Of a stretch of DNA of 64,000 nucleotides, positions 1,468 to 9,279 are shown piece after piece. The notes below the pieces were generated by a model. It was not told the origin of the DNA. It did not search any database and was given only the letters and a program-made list of their open reading frames with translations. Within the stretch, counting starts at the first letter, position 1. Each line of letters starts with the position of its first letter. This DNA comes from Aquamicrobium sp. (GTDB lineage Bacteria > Pseudomonadota > Alphaproteobacteria > Rhizobiales > Rhizobiaceae). The position numbers and the translations under genes were made by a program. The DNA is taken from NCBI GenBank assembly GCA_019739225.1, contig JAHHDT010000001.1, forward strand, positions 992,001 to 1,056,000. Reading direction: 5' to 3'.

Positions 1468-2997
1468 TCAGTCCCCGTCCATCGCAAAGGCGGTGTTTGC
1501 GCCCTTGGGCTGCATCGCGCGCCAGATCACCGGCCCCAGCACCGCGGCAAATGCGATCGCATAGATCGTCAGCGCGATCGGCGAGGTGAACAGGAAGGTC
1601 CAGTCGCCGCGATTGATCATCAGGCCACGCCGAAGCTGCTCTTCGGCCAGCGGGCCGAGGATGGTTCCCACCAGCACCGGCGCCAGCGGATAGCCGAATC
1701 GGCGCATCAGGAAGCCCAGCAGCCCGAACGCAAGCAGCAGCACCAGCGCGAAGACCGACCCTTCCGCCCCCACGATGCCCAGCGTCGCGAAGGTGAGGAT
1801 GCCGGCATAGAGCCACGGGCGCGGGATCATCAGCAGCTTCACCCACACGCCCACGAAGGGCAGGTTGAGCACCACCAGCATCACATTGGCGATGAACAGG
1901 CTGGCAACAAGCCCCCAGACGATGTCCGGGTTGTTGGTGAACAGCAACGGCCCCGGCTGTAGCCCATACTGCTGGAAGCCGGCGAGCATGATTGCCGCGG
2001 TCGCCGAGGTCGGCAGGCCCAGCGTCAGCAGCGGGATCAGCGTGCCGGCAGCCGAGGCATTGTTGGCGGCCTCAGGCCCCGCGACGCCCTCGATGGCGCC
2101 CTTCGGCCCCTCGAATTCCTCCTTGGCCACACCTTTCGCCGTCTTGCGCTCGGTCGAATAGGACAGGAAAGTCGGGATTTCGGCACCGCCCGTCGGCAAC
2201 GGGCCGAAGCTGAAGCCCAGCAGCGTGCCGCGCAGATAGGGCTTGATGCAGCGTTTGAGGTCGGCGAGCGTAAGCCAGACCGAGCCTTTGATGGCCTCGA
2301 CCTTCTCGCCGATATTGTGCTTCTGCGAGGCGATGTAGAGCGTCTCGCCGACCGCGAACAGGCCGACCGCCACGATGGCGATCGAGATGTTGTCGCGCAG
2401 TTCGGCGACCCCGAAGGCAAGCCGCGCCTGCCCGGTCAGCTTGTCGATGCCGACGAGGCCGATGGCGAGCCCGAGAAACAGCGCCGTCAGGCCCCGTATG
2501 ATCGAGCCGCCGAACGCCGCCGAAACGGTCATGAACGACAGCACCATCAGCGCGAAATATTCCGCCGGGCCAAACGACAAGGCCACCATCACCATGAAGG
2601 GTGCGACCACAGCCAGCCCCAGCGTCGCAAAGCTGCCGCCGAAGAACGAGCCGATCGCGGCAGCACCCAGCGCTTTGCCGCCGCGACCGTCGCGGGCCAT
2701 CTTGTTACCCTCGACGGCGGTCATGATCGATGCGGTTTCGCCGGGCGTGTTGAGCAGGATCGACGAGATCGCACCGCCATACATGCCACCATAATAGATG
2801 CCGGCGAACATGATGAGTGAGCCGGTGGCGCCGAAGGAAAGGCTGACGGGCAACAGCAGCGCCACCGTGAGCGCGGGACCGATGCCCGGCATGACGCCCA
2901 CCGCCGTGCCGAGGATCACGCCGATCAGCGCGAACAGGAGGTTCATTGGCTCGGCCGCGACCGCAAGCCCGTTCAGGAGAAGCGAGAATGTATCCAT
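1468..2997 (-). CDS. tctA: Tripartite tricarboxylate transporter permease, TctA family
   Basis: 509 aa polytopic protein with TctA motifs ([63 protein letters not shown]). Confidence 0.95.
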
Positions 2998-3012: not shown

Positions 3013-3585
3013 TCAGCGGCGGAACGGGCTGTCGATCAGCCGTTCAAGCGGTCCGGCCCTCAGCGAAAGCCCGAGGCCGTGGCGGAAAAGGATGTAGAGA
3101 AACGCCGAAATGCAGACGCCGACGAGAATGGTGAACCACACCGGCCTGCGCCCCATGCCGCGCGCCGAAAGACCGAACAGCGCGCCGGAGGCCAGAATGA
3201 AGCCCGCCCCAATGCTCAGCAGCGTAATTTCGGCAACGACTGCGCCGACGATCCAGCCCACCGGCGGCCAATTCATCTCCGAGCGCTCCGGAAACTCGCT
3301 CAGGATCGCAAGCCGCACCGTAAGGAAGCCGAACACGACAAGCCCGGCCGCCACCACATAGGGAAAGATCTCCGGGCCGACCTGGGCATAGTTGCGCCTA
3401 GCCGGGTAACTGGACGCATCCCACCAGATCAGGATTGCCAGCGCGAACAGACCTAGAGCAATTGCGAGCCCTGCGAGATCACGACCGGTAGTGTGCTGCG
3501 GCTCGGAGGGGAACCGGCTTTCGCCGGCTCCATCTGTCTCGGTGGCCATTGCTGCCTCCCTACTGGGTGATGCCCAGCTCTCCAA
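3013..3585 (-). CDS. tctB: Tripartite tricarboxylate transporter small permease, TctB family
   Basis: Small four-TM protein between tctA and tctC; hydrophobicity and operon position. Confidence 0.85.
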   Translation of the reverse strand: MESWASPSREAAMATETDGAGESRFPSEPQHTTGRDLAGLAIALGLFALAILIWWDASSYPARRNYAQVGPEIFPYVVAAGLVVFGFLTVRLAILSEFPERSEMNWPPVGWIVGAVVAEITLLSIGAGFILASGALFGLSARGMGRRPVWFTILVGVCISAFLYILFRHGLGLSLRAGPLERLIDSPFRR

Positions 3586-4510
3586 GGATAGCGCCGGTCT
3601 GCTCGATCTCGCCCTTCAGGTATTCGGCGAAATCAGGACCGTCGAGATAGGTGTTCACCCAGCCCTTGGTCTCCAGCTCCTTGTTCCAGGCATCGGATTC
3701 GGCCATCGTGCGAATGGTGGAGATCAGCGCGTCGCGCTGCTCGTCGCTCAGCCCCGGCGCGCCGGCGATCATCCGCCAGTTCTGCACGTCCACGTCGAAG
3801 CCCTGCTCGACGAAGGTCGGCGCGTCCAGATAGGACTGCCGCTCCGGTGCCGTGATGCCGATCACCTTCAGCGCGCCCGCCTCGATCTGCGCCGAGAACT
3901 CGCTGTAACCGGATACGCCCACGGTAACCTGGTTGCCGAGCAGCGCGGCCAGAGCCTCGCCGCCGCCGGAATAGGGAATGTAGTTGATCGCCGCGGGATC
4001 GGCGCCTGCCGCCTTGGCGAACATGCCGGCCGCGATATGGTCGACGCCGCCGGCCGAGCCGCCCGCCCAGGTCACCGCGCCCGGATCGGTGCGCAGCGCC
4101 TCGGCAAGCTGTTCGGCATTGTCGATCTCGCTGTTGGCCGGAGCGACCACCACGACATACTCGCCGGTCAGGCGCGCGATCGGAGTGACGTCGGCGAGGC
4201 TCACCGGCGAATCGTTGGCGATGATGGCACCGACCATCACGTAGCCGCCGACGATGGTGGCCGCCCCGTCGCCGTTCGAATTGTTGACGAACTGCTGCAG
4301 GCCGATCGTGCCGCCAGCGCCGCCGACATTCTCCACCTGGATGTTGGAGACGAGGCCCTCCGACTGCAGCGTCGACTGGATCGTGCGCGCGGTCTGGTCC
4401 CAGCCGCCGCCGGGTGCGGCCGGCGCCATGATCTTCAGTTCGGAAAGCTGCGCGAAAGCGGACGTTGCGGAAAGCAGCCCGACGGCTGCGGCAAGCGCGA
4501 AAATTCTCAT
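3560..4510 (-). CDS. tctC: Tripartite tricarboxylate transporter substrate-binding protein, TctC/Bug family
   Basis: Signal peptide [20 protein letters not shown], then Bug-family pattern ([32 protein letters not shown]). Start placed at the internal Met at 4510 rather than the ORF start at 4588. Confidence 0.92.
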
Positions 4511-4683
4511 GATGTCCTCCCAGACAATGCTGTCATGACGGCCGCATACGGCCAGCCGGTATCCTCCCGGTTGCGGGCATCGTAGCACCCGAACCTGTCA
4601 TCCGCCTGTCACCGTCTTTCAGAGATCGTTTGAGAAGTCGCTCCGGCGAGGCAAGTGACGCGGGTTTAGGGGTCACCGCAGGC

Positions 4684-4774: not shown

Positions 4775-7249
4775 TCAGCGGGGAGAGACGATCTCGCGCC
4801 AGGTCGCCAGGAAACGGCTGCGGCGCTGCTGGTCGAGCGAAACCAGCAGCGATGGCCCGAGCGCCAGCGGCTGGACCGCCCCCCTGCCCCGCGCCGAAAC
4901 CGCCTCCGAAGTAAACGGGCCGCTCGAACCCGGAACGATCGACCCCAGCGCCGCGTCGCCCGCCGAGATGGCCTGGCCCTGCGGCGACAGCGCAAAATCG
5001 ACGAAAGCCCGCGCAAGGTCCGGCTCGGATGCATCGCGCGGGATCAGCATCGTACGCGTCAGCACCAGCACGTAGTCGTCCGGCACGATGATGCCGATCC
5101 TGGCGCCCGCGGCCTGCCGCGCCAGCGCATAGGAGCCGAGAACGTTGTAGCCGAGCGCCAGATCGCCCCGTTCCACCCGGTCGAGAATATCCGGGCTCGA
5201 CCCGCTCAGATGCACACCGATGCGCCCGAATGCGGTCGCAAGCCGCCAGAAGTTGGACGAGATGAGCTGGTCCTGCGCGGCCAGCAGGTAGCCGACGCCG
5301 CTCTTGGCGATGTCGTAGGTGCCGACCAGACCGCGAAAGCGTTCCGGCTGCTCCTCCAGCAGTTCGGCAAGCCGCAGATGCGTGCGCGGCAGCTCGTCTT
5401 CGCGCACGAGATCGGGATTGTAGATGATGACGGCCGGCTCGAAGGTGAAGCCGATCACCTCGCCGCGCCACTGCGCCCAGCCCGGCACCGATTGCAGGTA
5501 CTGCGAGGAGTGGGCGAGCGCGTGGCCGTCATTGGCAAGCTTGAGTTGCAGATCAGCCGCCGACGAGATCATCAGGTCCGGCTTCGGCGCGATGCTGCCG
5601 CCGAGGAATTCCTCATACATCACCAGCGTGTCGGTCTCCCGGTAGATGACCTCGACATCGGGTCGCACCTTCTGGAAACCCTCCACGAACCGCGCGAAAA
5701 GCGGCGTGTCGGTCGTGCCGACGATCGTCAGCGAGCGCGCACCCTCGGCCGGTGGCTGCAGGGCGGGATAGCGGTTCTCGGCCGCCTCGCCCTGTGCCGG
5801 CATAACCAGCAGCGCGGCGGCGAAAATCGATACGACCGCGACAGCCGCCGCTGCCGTGTGCGCGGCCGGCTTCCTGCGGCGCAGCGGCAGCATGATCTCC
5901 ACCGCCAGCCCGCCGCCGTCGCGGTCCGCCAAGCGGAGGCTGCCGCCATGCGAATCGACGACACGCTTGACGATGGCGAGCCCCAGTCCCGAGCCCGTCT
6001 TGCCTTCCCCGGCGCTGCCCCGCTTGAAACGTTGAAGCACCGTTTCCTTCTCCGGATCGGGAATGCCCGGCCCCCGATCGCTCACAGAAAGCAGCACGGT
6101 ACCCGGCTCGGGCGATTGCGCCGCGATCTCGACCGCACCCGTCGAATAGAGCATCGCGTTGTCGACCACGTTGCGCAGCATCTCGCGTACCACCACCCGG
6201 TCCGCGAATAGCTCAGCCGCGCCGGCGTCCTCCTCCACCGACACCGACAGCCGGGCCGCAGCCACCGGATCGAGCCGCTGCCGCACCTCGTCAATCAGCG
6301 CGTCGACGCTGGTGGGCCGCGCATCGCGCATGTCCAACCGATGCGAGATCGTCGCGTCCATCAGGAGCTGCGAGACGAGCTGGCTCGCCTGCGCAGCACT
6401 CTGGTGGATGCGCGAGACCCGCGCGCGCAGCTTCTCCGGGTCCGGCTCGTCCATGGCGATCTCGGCCTGTGCGCGAAGCGAGGCCAGCGGCGTGCGCACC
6501 TCGTGCGCGGCCTCGCTCACCAGTCCGCTCAACCGTTCTATCGCCAGCCGCAGCCGGTCGGTGAAGCCGTTCAGTGCAACGACGAGCTGGCTGACTTCAG
6601 CCGGCACCGGCACCGAAACCGGCGAGAGGTCGTCGGGCGAGCGCGCGCGCAGCTCCTGCTCCAGCGTCGAGAGCGGCGCGAAGGTGCGGCCAAGCCCGAA
6701 CCAGACGATACCGATCGCCAGCAGCGTCAGTGCGGCCAGCGGCAGCATCGCGTTGGAGAGGATTTCGGCCGAAAGCAGTTCGCGTTCGTTCTGCGTCTCC
6801 GCCACGCGGATCGTCACCCAGGCGGCCTCGTCCGCCGACGAGATCAGCCGGCCGAGGCTCACCAGCCGCAGCGTCTCGCCGCGATAGTCGAGGTCCTGGA
6901 AGACCGGCTCGGCCGAATCTGCCGGCGGCAGCTCGTTGGCGAGGTCGTCATAGCCCGTCACCAGCGCGCCGTCGGGTGCCCTGACCGTGTAGAACAGCCT
7001 GTCGCTGCCGGAAAACATCGCGAATGACGCGAACGGCAGCTCGACCAGCACCGTCTCGTCCTCGATCTGCACCGCACCCGCGATCGTCAGCGCGGACGCC
7101 GCCAGCAGCCGGTCGAAGGCCCGGTCGGCCGCGCGCTCCGCGTAATCGTTGATGAAGGCGGCAAGCGCCACCGCGGCCACCAGCAGCAGCGAGACGGCCA
7201 GCGCGAAGATGCGCCGGCGGATCGAGAACGCGCTATTTGCCATCGCCAC
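4775..7249 (-). CDS. Sensor histidine kinase (TctE-like) fused to a C-terminal extracellular solute-binding domain
   Basis: Single 824 aa ORF: N-terminal TM and sensor, HAMP-like segment, H-box SEAAHEVRTPLASLRAQAEI, HATPase motifs (GPGIPD, GSGLGLAIV), second TM (AAAAVAVVSIFAAALLVMPAQG), then an SBP-like domain (SLTIVGTTDTPLFARFVEGFQKVRPDVEVIYRE...). Confidence 0.9.
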   Translation of the reverse strand: MAMANSAFSIRRRIFALAVSLLLVAAVALAAFINDYAERAADRAFDRLLAASALTIAGAVQIEDETVLVELPFASFAMFSGSDRLFYTVRAPDGALVTGYDDLANELPPADSAEPVFQDLDYRGETLRLVSLGRLISSADEAAWVTIRVAETQNERELLSAEILSNAMLPLAALTLLAIGIVWFGLGRTFAPLSTLEQELRARSPDDLSPVSVPVPAEVSQLVVALNGFTDRLRLAIERLSGLVSEAAHEVRTPLASLRAQAEIAMDEPDPEKLRARVSRIHQSAAQASQLVSQLLMDATISHRLDMRDARPTSVDALIDEVRQRLDPVAAARLSVSVEEDAGAAELFADRVVVREMLRNVVDNAMLYSTGAVEIAAQSPEPGTVLLSVSDRGPGIPDPEKETVLQRFKRGSAGEGKTGSGLGLAIVKRVVDSHGGSLRLADRDGGGLAVEIMLPLRRRKPAAHTAAAAVAVVSIFAAALLVMPAQGEAAENRYPALQPPAEGARSLTIVGTTDTPLFARFVEGFQKVRPDVEVIYRETDTLVMYEEFLGGSIAPKPDLMISSAADLQLKLANDGHALAHSSQYLQSVPGWAQWRGEVIGFTFEPAVIIYNPDLVREDELPRTHLRLAELLEEQPERFRGLVGTYDIAKSGVGYLLAAQDQLISSNFWRLATAFGRIGVHLSGSSPDILDRVERGDLALGYNVLGSYALARQAAGARIGIIVPDDYVLVLTRTMLIPRDASEPDLARAFVDFALSPQGQAISAGDAALGSIVPGSSGPFTSEAVSARGRGAVQPLALGPSLLVSLDQQRRSRFLATWREIVSPR

Positions 7250-7913
7250 CCGCAGCCCGTGCGAGATAGCCGACGCCGCGCACCGTCTCGATTTCCAGCC
7301 GCGAGCCCTCCAGCTTGCGACGCAGGCGCGAGACCTGAAGCTCGAGCGCGTTGACCGAGACGTCCTCGTCGAAATTGAAGAGCTGCGCCATCAGCCGCTC
7401 CTTGGCCACCACCTGCCCCACCCGCGCGAGCAGGATTTCGAGCAGCCGGAACTCGCGCCGCCCCAGCTCGACCTTGCGTCCGCCGACGCTCACGAAGCCG
7501 TTGGCGAGATCGACAGTTACGTCACCCACGGTGGCGAGGCTCGTCACCTGCCCCGCCGGGCGACGCATCAGCACCCGCAGCCGCGCCTCCAGCTCGCGCA
7601 GGTCGAATGGCTTGACCAGATAGTCGTCGGCGCCGCGATCGAGCAGGCTCACCTTGTCGTCGATCTCGGCGCGCGCCGTCATCACCAGAACCGGCGTTTC
7701 CGACTTGCGCCCGCGCAGTTCGGCAAGAATAGAGATTCCATCGCGCCCGGGCAGCGTCAGGTCGAGCGCCACCACGTCGAACGTCTCGCTGGCGGCAACC
7801 TCTATCGCCTCGTCGCCGTTGCGCAGCCACTCGACGGAATGGCCGGCATCGCGCAGCCTGCGCTCGATCGCCTCGCCGAGATCCTCGTTGTCCTCCACCA
7901 GCAATATGCGCAT
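7233..7913 (-). CDS. OmpR-family response regulator (TctD-like)
   Basis: Receiver MRILLVEDNEDLGEAI, VVALDLTLPGRDGI, VLVMTARAEIDDKV, KPFDLRELEARLR; winged-helix C terminus. Start at the MRILLV Met. Confidence 0.93.
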   Translation of the reverse strand: MRILLVEDNEDLGEAIERRLRDAGHSVEWLRNGDEAIEVAASETFDVVALDLTLPGRDGISILAELRGRKSETPVLVMTARAEIDDKVSLLDRGADDYLVKPFDLRELEARLRVLMRRPAGQVTSLATVGDVTVDLANGFVSVGGRKVELGRREFRLLEILLARVGQVVAKERLMAQLFNFDEDVSVNALELQVSRLRRKLEGSRLEIETVRGVGYLARAAGGDGK

Positions 7914-8081
7914 TGTCGTCGCATCGCCCTCCTCCGGCGTAGCGGGAGACAATCGCACCTGTGGCCCCTCGCTTCAACGCACCCCCCACACGTTTTGCGC
8001 AACGATGGTCTTGTGTGCGCCGCGATTGATTGTCAAAACGTTGCCAGCCGTTTCCTTTCCGCATGCGCCAAGGGACAGACA

Positions 8082-8330
8082 ATGGAAAACGACCTCGAAA
8101 GATACGCCATCGCCATCATCGTCGTGTTCGGCGCATTGGCCGTTGGCGGGCTGATGGCGGCCGGCATCGCCGCCGGCGACCGCAGCACCTTCCTTTACGC
8201 GCTCGGCGCGTCCGCGGCCGCATGGGTGGCAGGCTATGCCATGGTGTTTGGCATGCCCCGCCTCCTGGCAGTTCTGATTCTCGTTGCGTTGGTCATGGCC
8301 ATCGCCTCGACCGTCGCCTTCATCACCTGA
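8082..8330 (+). CDS. Small membrane protein, unknown function
   Basis: 82 aa, about three hydrophobic segments (MENDLERYAIAIIVVFGALAVGGLMAAG...), preceded by AAGGGA. Confidence 0.6.
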   Translation: MENDLERYAIAIIVVFGALAVGGLMAAGIAAGDRSTFLYALGASAAAWVAGYAMVFGMPRLLAVLILVALVMAIASTVAFIT

Positions 8331-8332
8331 GT

Positions 8333-8980
8333 TCAAGCGGGGTTCGAGCCAAGCAGCTCTCGCGCCCGTTCAAGCTCGTCGGGCGTGTTGACGTTGAAGA
8401 AGGGGTCGACGTCCGCGCGAGCCGGAAACTGCGCAACGGCAGCGCCGTGATTCTGCGCCCATGTGGCGACCTTGCGCTCTCCGCGCTCCAGCGCGGCCCG
8501 CAAATCCCCGCTCAATGCCACCGGCCACATGCCGAAGGTCGGATGAAGCCGCTCCACACCCTCGCCATCGACGGATGCCGCCAGGGCCAGCCCACCGCCG
8601 CCGGCATCCCGCAGACGTTCGGCGAGGTCGTCCGGCAGGAACGGCGTATCCCCTGCGGCTGAAACCAGCGAATCGCCGCCATGCGCAGCCGCCCACTCCA
8701 ACCCGGCCAGAATGCCGGCCAGCGGCCCCGGCAGGCCGCCGATCGTGTCGGCAATCACCGGAAGGCCGAAACGCGCAAAGCGGGCCGGGTCGCCATTGGC
8801 GTTGATGGCCAGCGCCGCGCACTGCGGTCGCAGCCGGGCGATCACATTGTCGAGCAGCGTCGTTTCGCCCAGCGCCAGCAGCGCCTTGTCACCGCCGCCC
8901 ATGCGGGAAGCGCGGCCGCCCGCGAGGATCACGCCCAGAGTTTCAGCCAAATGCGCCTCCGTTTGACGTCTCATCGCCAT
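8333..8980 (-). CDS. mobA: Molybdenum cofactor guanylyltransferase MobA
   Basis: GVILAGGRASRMGGGDKALL nucleotidyltransferase signature; SAAGDTPFLPDDL. Confidence 0.93.
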   Translation of the reverse strand: MAMRRQTEAHLAETLGVILAGGRASRMGGGDKALLALGETTLLDNVIARLRPQCAALAINANGDPARFARFGLPVIADTIGGLPGPLAGILAGLEWAAAHGGDSLVSAAGDTPFLPDDLAERLRDAGGGGLALAASVDGEGVERLHPTFGMWPVALSGDLRAALERGERKVATWAQNHGAAVAQFPARADVDPFFNVNTPDELERARELLGSNPA

Positions 8981-9075
8981 TGAGCACGGCCCATCCGAGG
9001 CCGGCAAGCCGCAAGGGGAACGATCGCCGTTTGCGTCCGTTGCGGGGACAGGGTGGGGCAGCAAGGGAGAAGACC

Positions 9076-9279
9076 ATGTCCGTAGCACGCATCACCGAAA
9101 TCTCCTCGACATCGACCAAGAGCTTCGAGGACGCCATCAATGTCGGCATCGAACGCGCCGGAAATACGTTGCGCAACATCAAGGGCGCATGGGTCAAGGA
9201 CCAGGAGGTGACCGTGGAGAATGGTCGGATCGCATCCTACAAGGTTGTCCTGAAAGTTACTTTCGTCCTCGAGGACTGA
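9076..9279 (+). CDS. Dodecin family flavin-binding protein
   Basis: 67 aa: SVARITEISSTSTKSFEDAINVGIERAGNTLRNIKGAWVKDQEVTVENGRIASYKVVLKVTFVLED. Confidence 0.95.
   Translation: MSVARITEISSTSTKSFEDAINVGIERAGNTLRNIKGAWVKDQEVTVENGRIASYKVVLKVTFVLED

Follow-up and report, generated by a model that had tools for sequence, protein, structure and literature searches.

A 64,000-nucleotide stretch of the genome of an Aquamicrobium species (hereafter the window) contains a single gene in which a TctE-type histidine kinase is continued, beyond its ATPase domain, by a solute-binding protein (SBP) of the MctA type. The segment that lies behind the ATPase domain and joins the two halves looks, from its sequence, like an intact and cleavable signal peptide. 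The reading that we prefer, and to which we give a probability of about 60%, is that the gene product is a precursor which signal peptidase I would cut into a kinase and a free citrate-sensing SBP that docks on the 2CSK_N domain of this kinase. What the analysis itself shows is the architecture, its conservation, the gene context, the protein family with its site residues and the signal-peptidase signature.

Organisation of the fused gene and its operon

The fused ORF (4775..7249, minus strand, as are all its features) starts with GTG, has no internal stop and encodes 824 amino acids. Its kinase half comprises TM1 (residues about 12-32; 7154..7216), the periplasmic sensor region 2CSK_N (residues 22-163; 6761..7186; Pfam PF08521, E 5.9e-33, with a match spanning the full profile, 1-140), TM2 (residues about 165-187; 6689..6757), a HisKA domain (residues 241-301; 6347..6529; Pfam PF00512) and a HATPase_c domain (residues 350-457; 5879..6202; Pfam PF02518, E 1.6e-21). 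Both transmembrane segments were located in the sequence and are helical in the structure model. The phospho-acceptor H249 (6503-6505) is invariant in the alignment, and the kinase motifs taken together (H249, N360/N364 of the N-box, D391-GPG and the GSGLGL G-box) are invariant or nearly so. By its domains and motifs this half is a histidine kinase of the 2CSK_N/TctE type, for which kinase activity and a response to citrate can be predicted.

A hydrophobic stretch (residues about 465-483), preceded by RRRK, separates HATPase_c from the binding protein. It is the core of a signal-peptide-like segment (residues 457-489; 5783..5881) with an RRRK n-region, a hydrophobic h-region and a PAQGEA c-region, delimited by sequence, alignment and motif counts. 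The predicted mature SBP (residues 490-824; 4778..5782) was assigned to the MctA/3c9h family by sequence and fold matches, and overlapping Pfam matches to SBP_bac_11, 6, 1 and 8 are found across residues of about 515-775.

The fusion stands between a response regulator gene, upstream, and tctCBA, downstream, all on the minus strand. The regulator (REC and winged helix by Pfam and NCBIfam; ORF as listed 7233..7958) has its likely start at an ATG near 7913 and its gene overlaps the kinase start; its best NCBIfam match is TctD, with 195 bits, which is below the equivalog cut-off of 337. The transporter genes encode TctC (ORF as listed 3560..4588, likely start near 4510; Pfam PF03401), TctB (ORF as listed 3013..3585; Pfam PF07331) and TctA (1468..2997; Pfam PF01970, E 1.3e-143). 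A scan of the gap between the fusion and tctC for terminators and promoters gave nothing convincing, and no further SBP copy of the same kind was found in this genome. Molybdenum cofactor genes lie on either side of the operon (73-1371 and 8333-9088), MoeA-like and MobA-like as judged by eye from the sequence.

The initial annotation had described a TctE-like kinase with a C-terminal SBP in one ORF, adjoined by TctABC and a TctD-like regulator; the Pfam domains and the stop-free 824-residue frame confirm the former, and the Pfam and NCBIfam matches the latter. It had also called the SBP ABC-type, which is correct for the fold and not for the context, as the neighbouring transporter is a tripartite tricarboxylate transporter.

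Fused and unfused pairs in other genomes

A search for this architecture across genomes yielded full-length, single-ORF relatives in independent genomes at 82, 79, 64-66 and 56-60% identity. Those at genus level share 79-82% with the window; the fusions of Devosia, Aureimonas, Yoonia, Loktanella and other Rhodobacterales and Hyphomicrobiales share 56-67%, that of Peteryoungia 59% and those of Azospirillum 40-44%, and Mesorhizobium is also among the Alphaproteobacteria with a full-length fusion. In comparison with two close relatives, dN/dS was 0.10-0.17 in the sensor, kinase and SBP regions and 0.47-0.63 in the linker; purifying selection acts on both halves of the fused gene. The copies of Mesorhizobium sediminum (L051, about 8118-8160) and Devosia A8/3-2 (L062, 6716-8221) are frameshifted. 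In RefSeq the fused proteins (L176-L179) carry only the product name 'extracellular solute-binding protein', which hides the kinase half.

In many other Proteobacteria the kinase and the SBP are encoded by two genes that adjoin each other next to tctCBA, which bears out the earlier remark that separate proteins are the usual arrangement. Most of the other loci examined have such a separate pair together with the regulator and Tct genes; where the retrieved stretch included the regulator, TctC and TctA, 27 unfused pairs were in tandem and 14 divergent. Because the fusion joins genes that are otherwise adjacent, the kinase and the SBP can be considered to share a function. Outside the Alphaproteobacteria, only unfused pairs and no fusion were seen among the matches listed in a phylum-wide sample.

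In a tree of 80 concatenated kinase-SBP pairs, 29 fused proteins, that of the window included, form one clade (SH-aLRT 100). The other fusions are placed elsewhere (G306; G386 with G670; G798; G797), so that four changes between the fused and unfused states are needed in this tree and four to five across trees, all of them being quick LG+G4 trees with some long branches. When Azospirillum had been added to such a quick tree, a single origin of all fusions was rejected (AU test, p 1e-117).

Some unfused loci have features of their own. In G575 (L157) and G661 (L158) the SBP lies in frame behind the kinase with a single TGA between them and starts with a lipoprotein-like signal, LAAC and LAGC, respectively. 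The unfused SBPs of G027 (L088) and G020 (L089) carry a hydrophobic segment at the N-terminus in which no clear signal-peptidase site can be made out and which may be an anchor that is not cleaved. At G223 (L109) one kinase-regulator pair is flanked by two SBPs of the MctA/3c9h-type family, and no Tct genes were found in that stretch.

A predicted cleavage site at the junction

The junction passes from RRRK through the hydrophobic run to PAQGEA and then AEN. The predicted site, G487-E488-A489, has the n-h-c layout of a signal peptide with a small residue at -3 and alanine at -1, and the cut by signal peptidase I is predicted between A489 and A490 (codons GCG and GCC; 5780..5785) from the conservation of A489 and the sequence. 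From residue 456 to residue 508, A489 is the sole column without any variation, in alignment A1 as well as in the 29-member clade (29/29), and at -3 all but one of the 29 members have A, V, G, S or T. Its codon is GCG in 14 members, GCC in 11, GCA in three and GCT in one; since four different alanine codons are used, it is the residue and not the DNA that is conserved. Linker length and sequence drift apart from A489.

A site of the form [AVSGTCIL]-x-A after the h-region is present in all 36 fused junctions, and in 30 of them together with a proline 4-8 residues before the cut, although these counts are not independent as the sequences are related. The same combination occurs in only 2/84 TM1 and 6/84 TM2 segments of the same kinases. 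In the signals of unfused SBPs the small-x-Ala site was found in 42 of 44, with the proline in 20. Moreover, separate fusions carry the same cut-site signature, and P484 and A489 are kept in Azospirillum too. The internal signal of the Aureimonas junction (L058) has a twin-arginine-like start, GRRHVLSG, and because of this the SBP half may there take another export route.

Points against the cleaved-precursor reading are the following. A home-made E. coli cleavage matrix, trained on too few peptides, gave the junction a moderate score of 7.0 against 10-18 for known E. coli peptides; genuine unfused SBP signals had a median of 2.9 with it, and it was superseded by the motif and conservation counts with TM1 and TM2 as controls. 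The h-region of the window is long (19 residues) and could remain as a membrane anchor. The lipobox of G575 and G661 and the absence of a clear cut site in G027 and G020 suggest that tethering is tolerable, and the structure models are of moderate confidence.

In the rival reading of a tethered sensor, the third hydrophobic segment would remain in the membrane as a lasting transmembrane helix and the SBP would stay attached, acting by its high local concentration or by signalling via TM3 to the ATPase domain. The single ORF, the positive-inside topology and the long h-region are consistent with such a tether, and because some unfused SBPs of the MctA-type family appear to be membrane-held (by a lipobox or an uncleaved anchor), membrane attachment is compatible with function. 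Nevertheless, all that the linker conserves is a signal-peptidase site, maintained through synonymous codon variation, while the remainder drifts in length and sequence, unlike a signalling helix. A permanent tether is possible, less supported than cleavage, and we consider it unlikely.

Family and predicted ligand of the binding protein

The nearest solved relatives of the SBP half are Agrobacterium 3c9h (E 4e-65) and the metal-citrate-binding protein MctA (E 2e-43). A fold search with a model of this half (pLDDT 67, moderate confidence) returned 3c9h and MctA chains at ranks 1-15, and the same 15 chains ranked first for the whole-protein model, also of moderate confidence. By sequence and modelled fold, the SBP half belongs to the MctA metal-citrate-binding family.

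The citrate-site positions of MctA were taken from the titles of mutant PDB entries (S26A, D28A, S79A, S164A, T199A and Y221F/A; several of these structures are of the apo state according to their titles). In an alignment that allows for a two-residue offset in the chain, S26, D28, S79, S164, T199 and Y221 correspond to T512, D514, S563, S650, S685 and Y707, four positions being identical and two conserving the hydroxyl group. D514, S563, S650 and Y707 are near-invariant among fused and unfused SBPs, the S685 column has Ser or Thr in nearly all of them, and the T512 column varies. In Azospirillum thermophilum (L180, 16441-18936) the fused gene heads a citrate-lyase locus without TctABC, and is immediately followed by genes for malic enzyme and a fumarylacetoacetase-family protein, citCDEFXG and a 2-hydroxycarboxylate transporter gene. 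Because of the kinship with MctA, the conserved site residues and this citCDEFXG context, citrate or a near relative is the leading predicted ligand.

MctA has been named as an ABC transporter's binding protein, and the same fused precursor might accordingly supply an SBP for uptake, by an ABC or the Tct system, with the fusion serving only to couple expression. We regard this as improbable: neither the operon of the window nor the usual neighbourhood in relatives contains ABC permease or ATPase genes, the TctCBA found there instead has its own TctC, and the kinase is the recurrent partner of the SBP. This same TctC, the known partner of TctE-type kinases, is on the other hand a point against the MctA-type SBP as the partner of the kinase.

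Integrity of the fused frame

The separate SBP genes of unfused relatives could suggest that an internal translation start yields the SBP on its own, one of two refutations of the fusion that had been foreseen. This is very improbable, as no conserved in-frame start ahead of the internal signal sequence was found in the window and its relatives: the window ORF has no ATG, GTG or TTG between residues 453 and 483, and its only candidate, the ATG at residue 453, is missing from the closest relative (96% identical). The other, a sequencing or assembly error that joined two ORFs, which might be thought of in a high-GC genome with frameshifts in two relatives, is ruled out because uninterrupted single-ORF homologues occur in many independent genomes and species.

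Proposed mechanism

According to the cleaved-precursor reading, the fused gene would be translated into a single precursor whose kinase part inserts through TM1 and TM2, and the segment after the ATPase domain, serving as an internal signal sequence, would direct the export of the SBP. Signal peptidase I would probably cut after A489 and free the SBP, and the signal sequence left behind would anchor the C-terminus of the kinase in the membrane. We infer this cleavage, the identity of the ligand, the docking and the sign of regulation. The SBP would close on binding citrate or a similar tricarboxylate, possibly together with a metal, and would then dock on the 2CSK_N domain and switch the activity of the kinase; phospho-transfer to the TctD-like regulator would in turn control tctCBA. 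Being synthesised as one chain and then separated, the parts of the sensor would probably be made in equal amounts.

The initial annotation had seen an additional membrane crossing followed by a periplasmic SBP. The hydrophobic segment and the periplasmic location stand, with the segment now read as a cleavable signal peptide; covalent tethering of the SBP is not the best reading given the marks of such a signal and A489 as the only invariant linker residue. Because the segment looks like a cleavable signal, the proposed ligand input from both ends is better understood as the normal input from an SBP to the periplasmic domain, with both partners produced from a single gene.

The odds seem to us evenly balanced for a broader proposal, that of a family of polyprotein kinases, each with its own ligand-binding partner and with more than one origin, in which cleavage would set a 1:1 supply. 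Its bolder form is that cleavage may be partial or regulated, with the uncut kinase sensing through a third transmembrane helix that follows its ATPase domain.

Comparison with known systems

The kinase family, the SBP family, the operon type and SBP-to-kinase signalling are already known. As far as the searched literature goes, the fusion of kinase and SBP genes, which came about more than once and conserves a predicted cleavage site within the product, is new, as is the general pairing of MctA-type SBPs with TctE kinases; no description of the fusion architecture was found in the open literature searched. In Bordetella pertussis, citrate-loaded BctC acts on the TctE-type kinase BctE (PMC5812351; PMC9602780), which is the described precedent for signalling from an SBP to a kinase of this type. 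The TctDE and BctDE systems, beside TctCBA and BctCBA, resemble that of the window in the 2CSK_N kinase, the OmpR-type regulator close to TctD and the adjacent tctCBA genes, whereas in them the signalling SBP is TctC or BctC, encoded by a separate gene; the operon of the window has an additional SBP, of the MctA type, in one ORF with the kinase. Both in sequence and in fold, this SBP is of one family with MctA (7f6e series) and Agrobacterium 3c9h, and it keeps the citrate-site positions; however, MctA was described as part of an ABC transporter, whereas the SBP of the window is joined to a kinase and has no ABC transporter genes beside it.

Only about ten SBP-activated kinases have been characterised (PMC9602780). 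The fusion is genetic evidence that links an MctA-type SBP to a TctE kinase, and from it we predict that the unfused neighbours also work in pairs, as a second dedicated citrate sensor beside TctC. Moreover, it would represent a bacterial signalling polyprotein with a predicted cut site that can be tested in hosts that are easy to work with, Azospirillum brasilense Sp7 among them.

Histidine kinases of the BvgS type also have a periplasmic-binding domain built into the same polypeptide. There it is N-terminal to the kinase core, whereas in the protein of the window the binding domain comes after the ATPase domain, from which it is separated by an additional hydrophobic segment that carries a predicted cut site. 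A further likeness is to fbcH of Bradyrhizobium, the cytochrome b/c1 precursor, a single chain which signal peptidase splits, at a signal sequence inside it, into a membrane protein and an exported protein. The precursor of the window would be divided in the same manner, although fbcH gives rise to a respiratory complex and not to a sensor.
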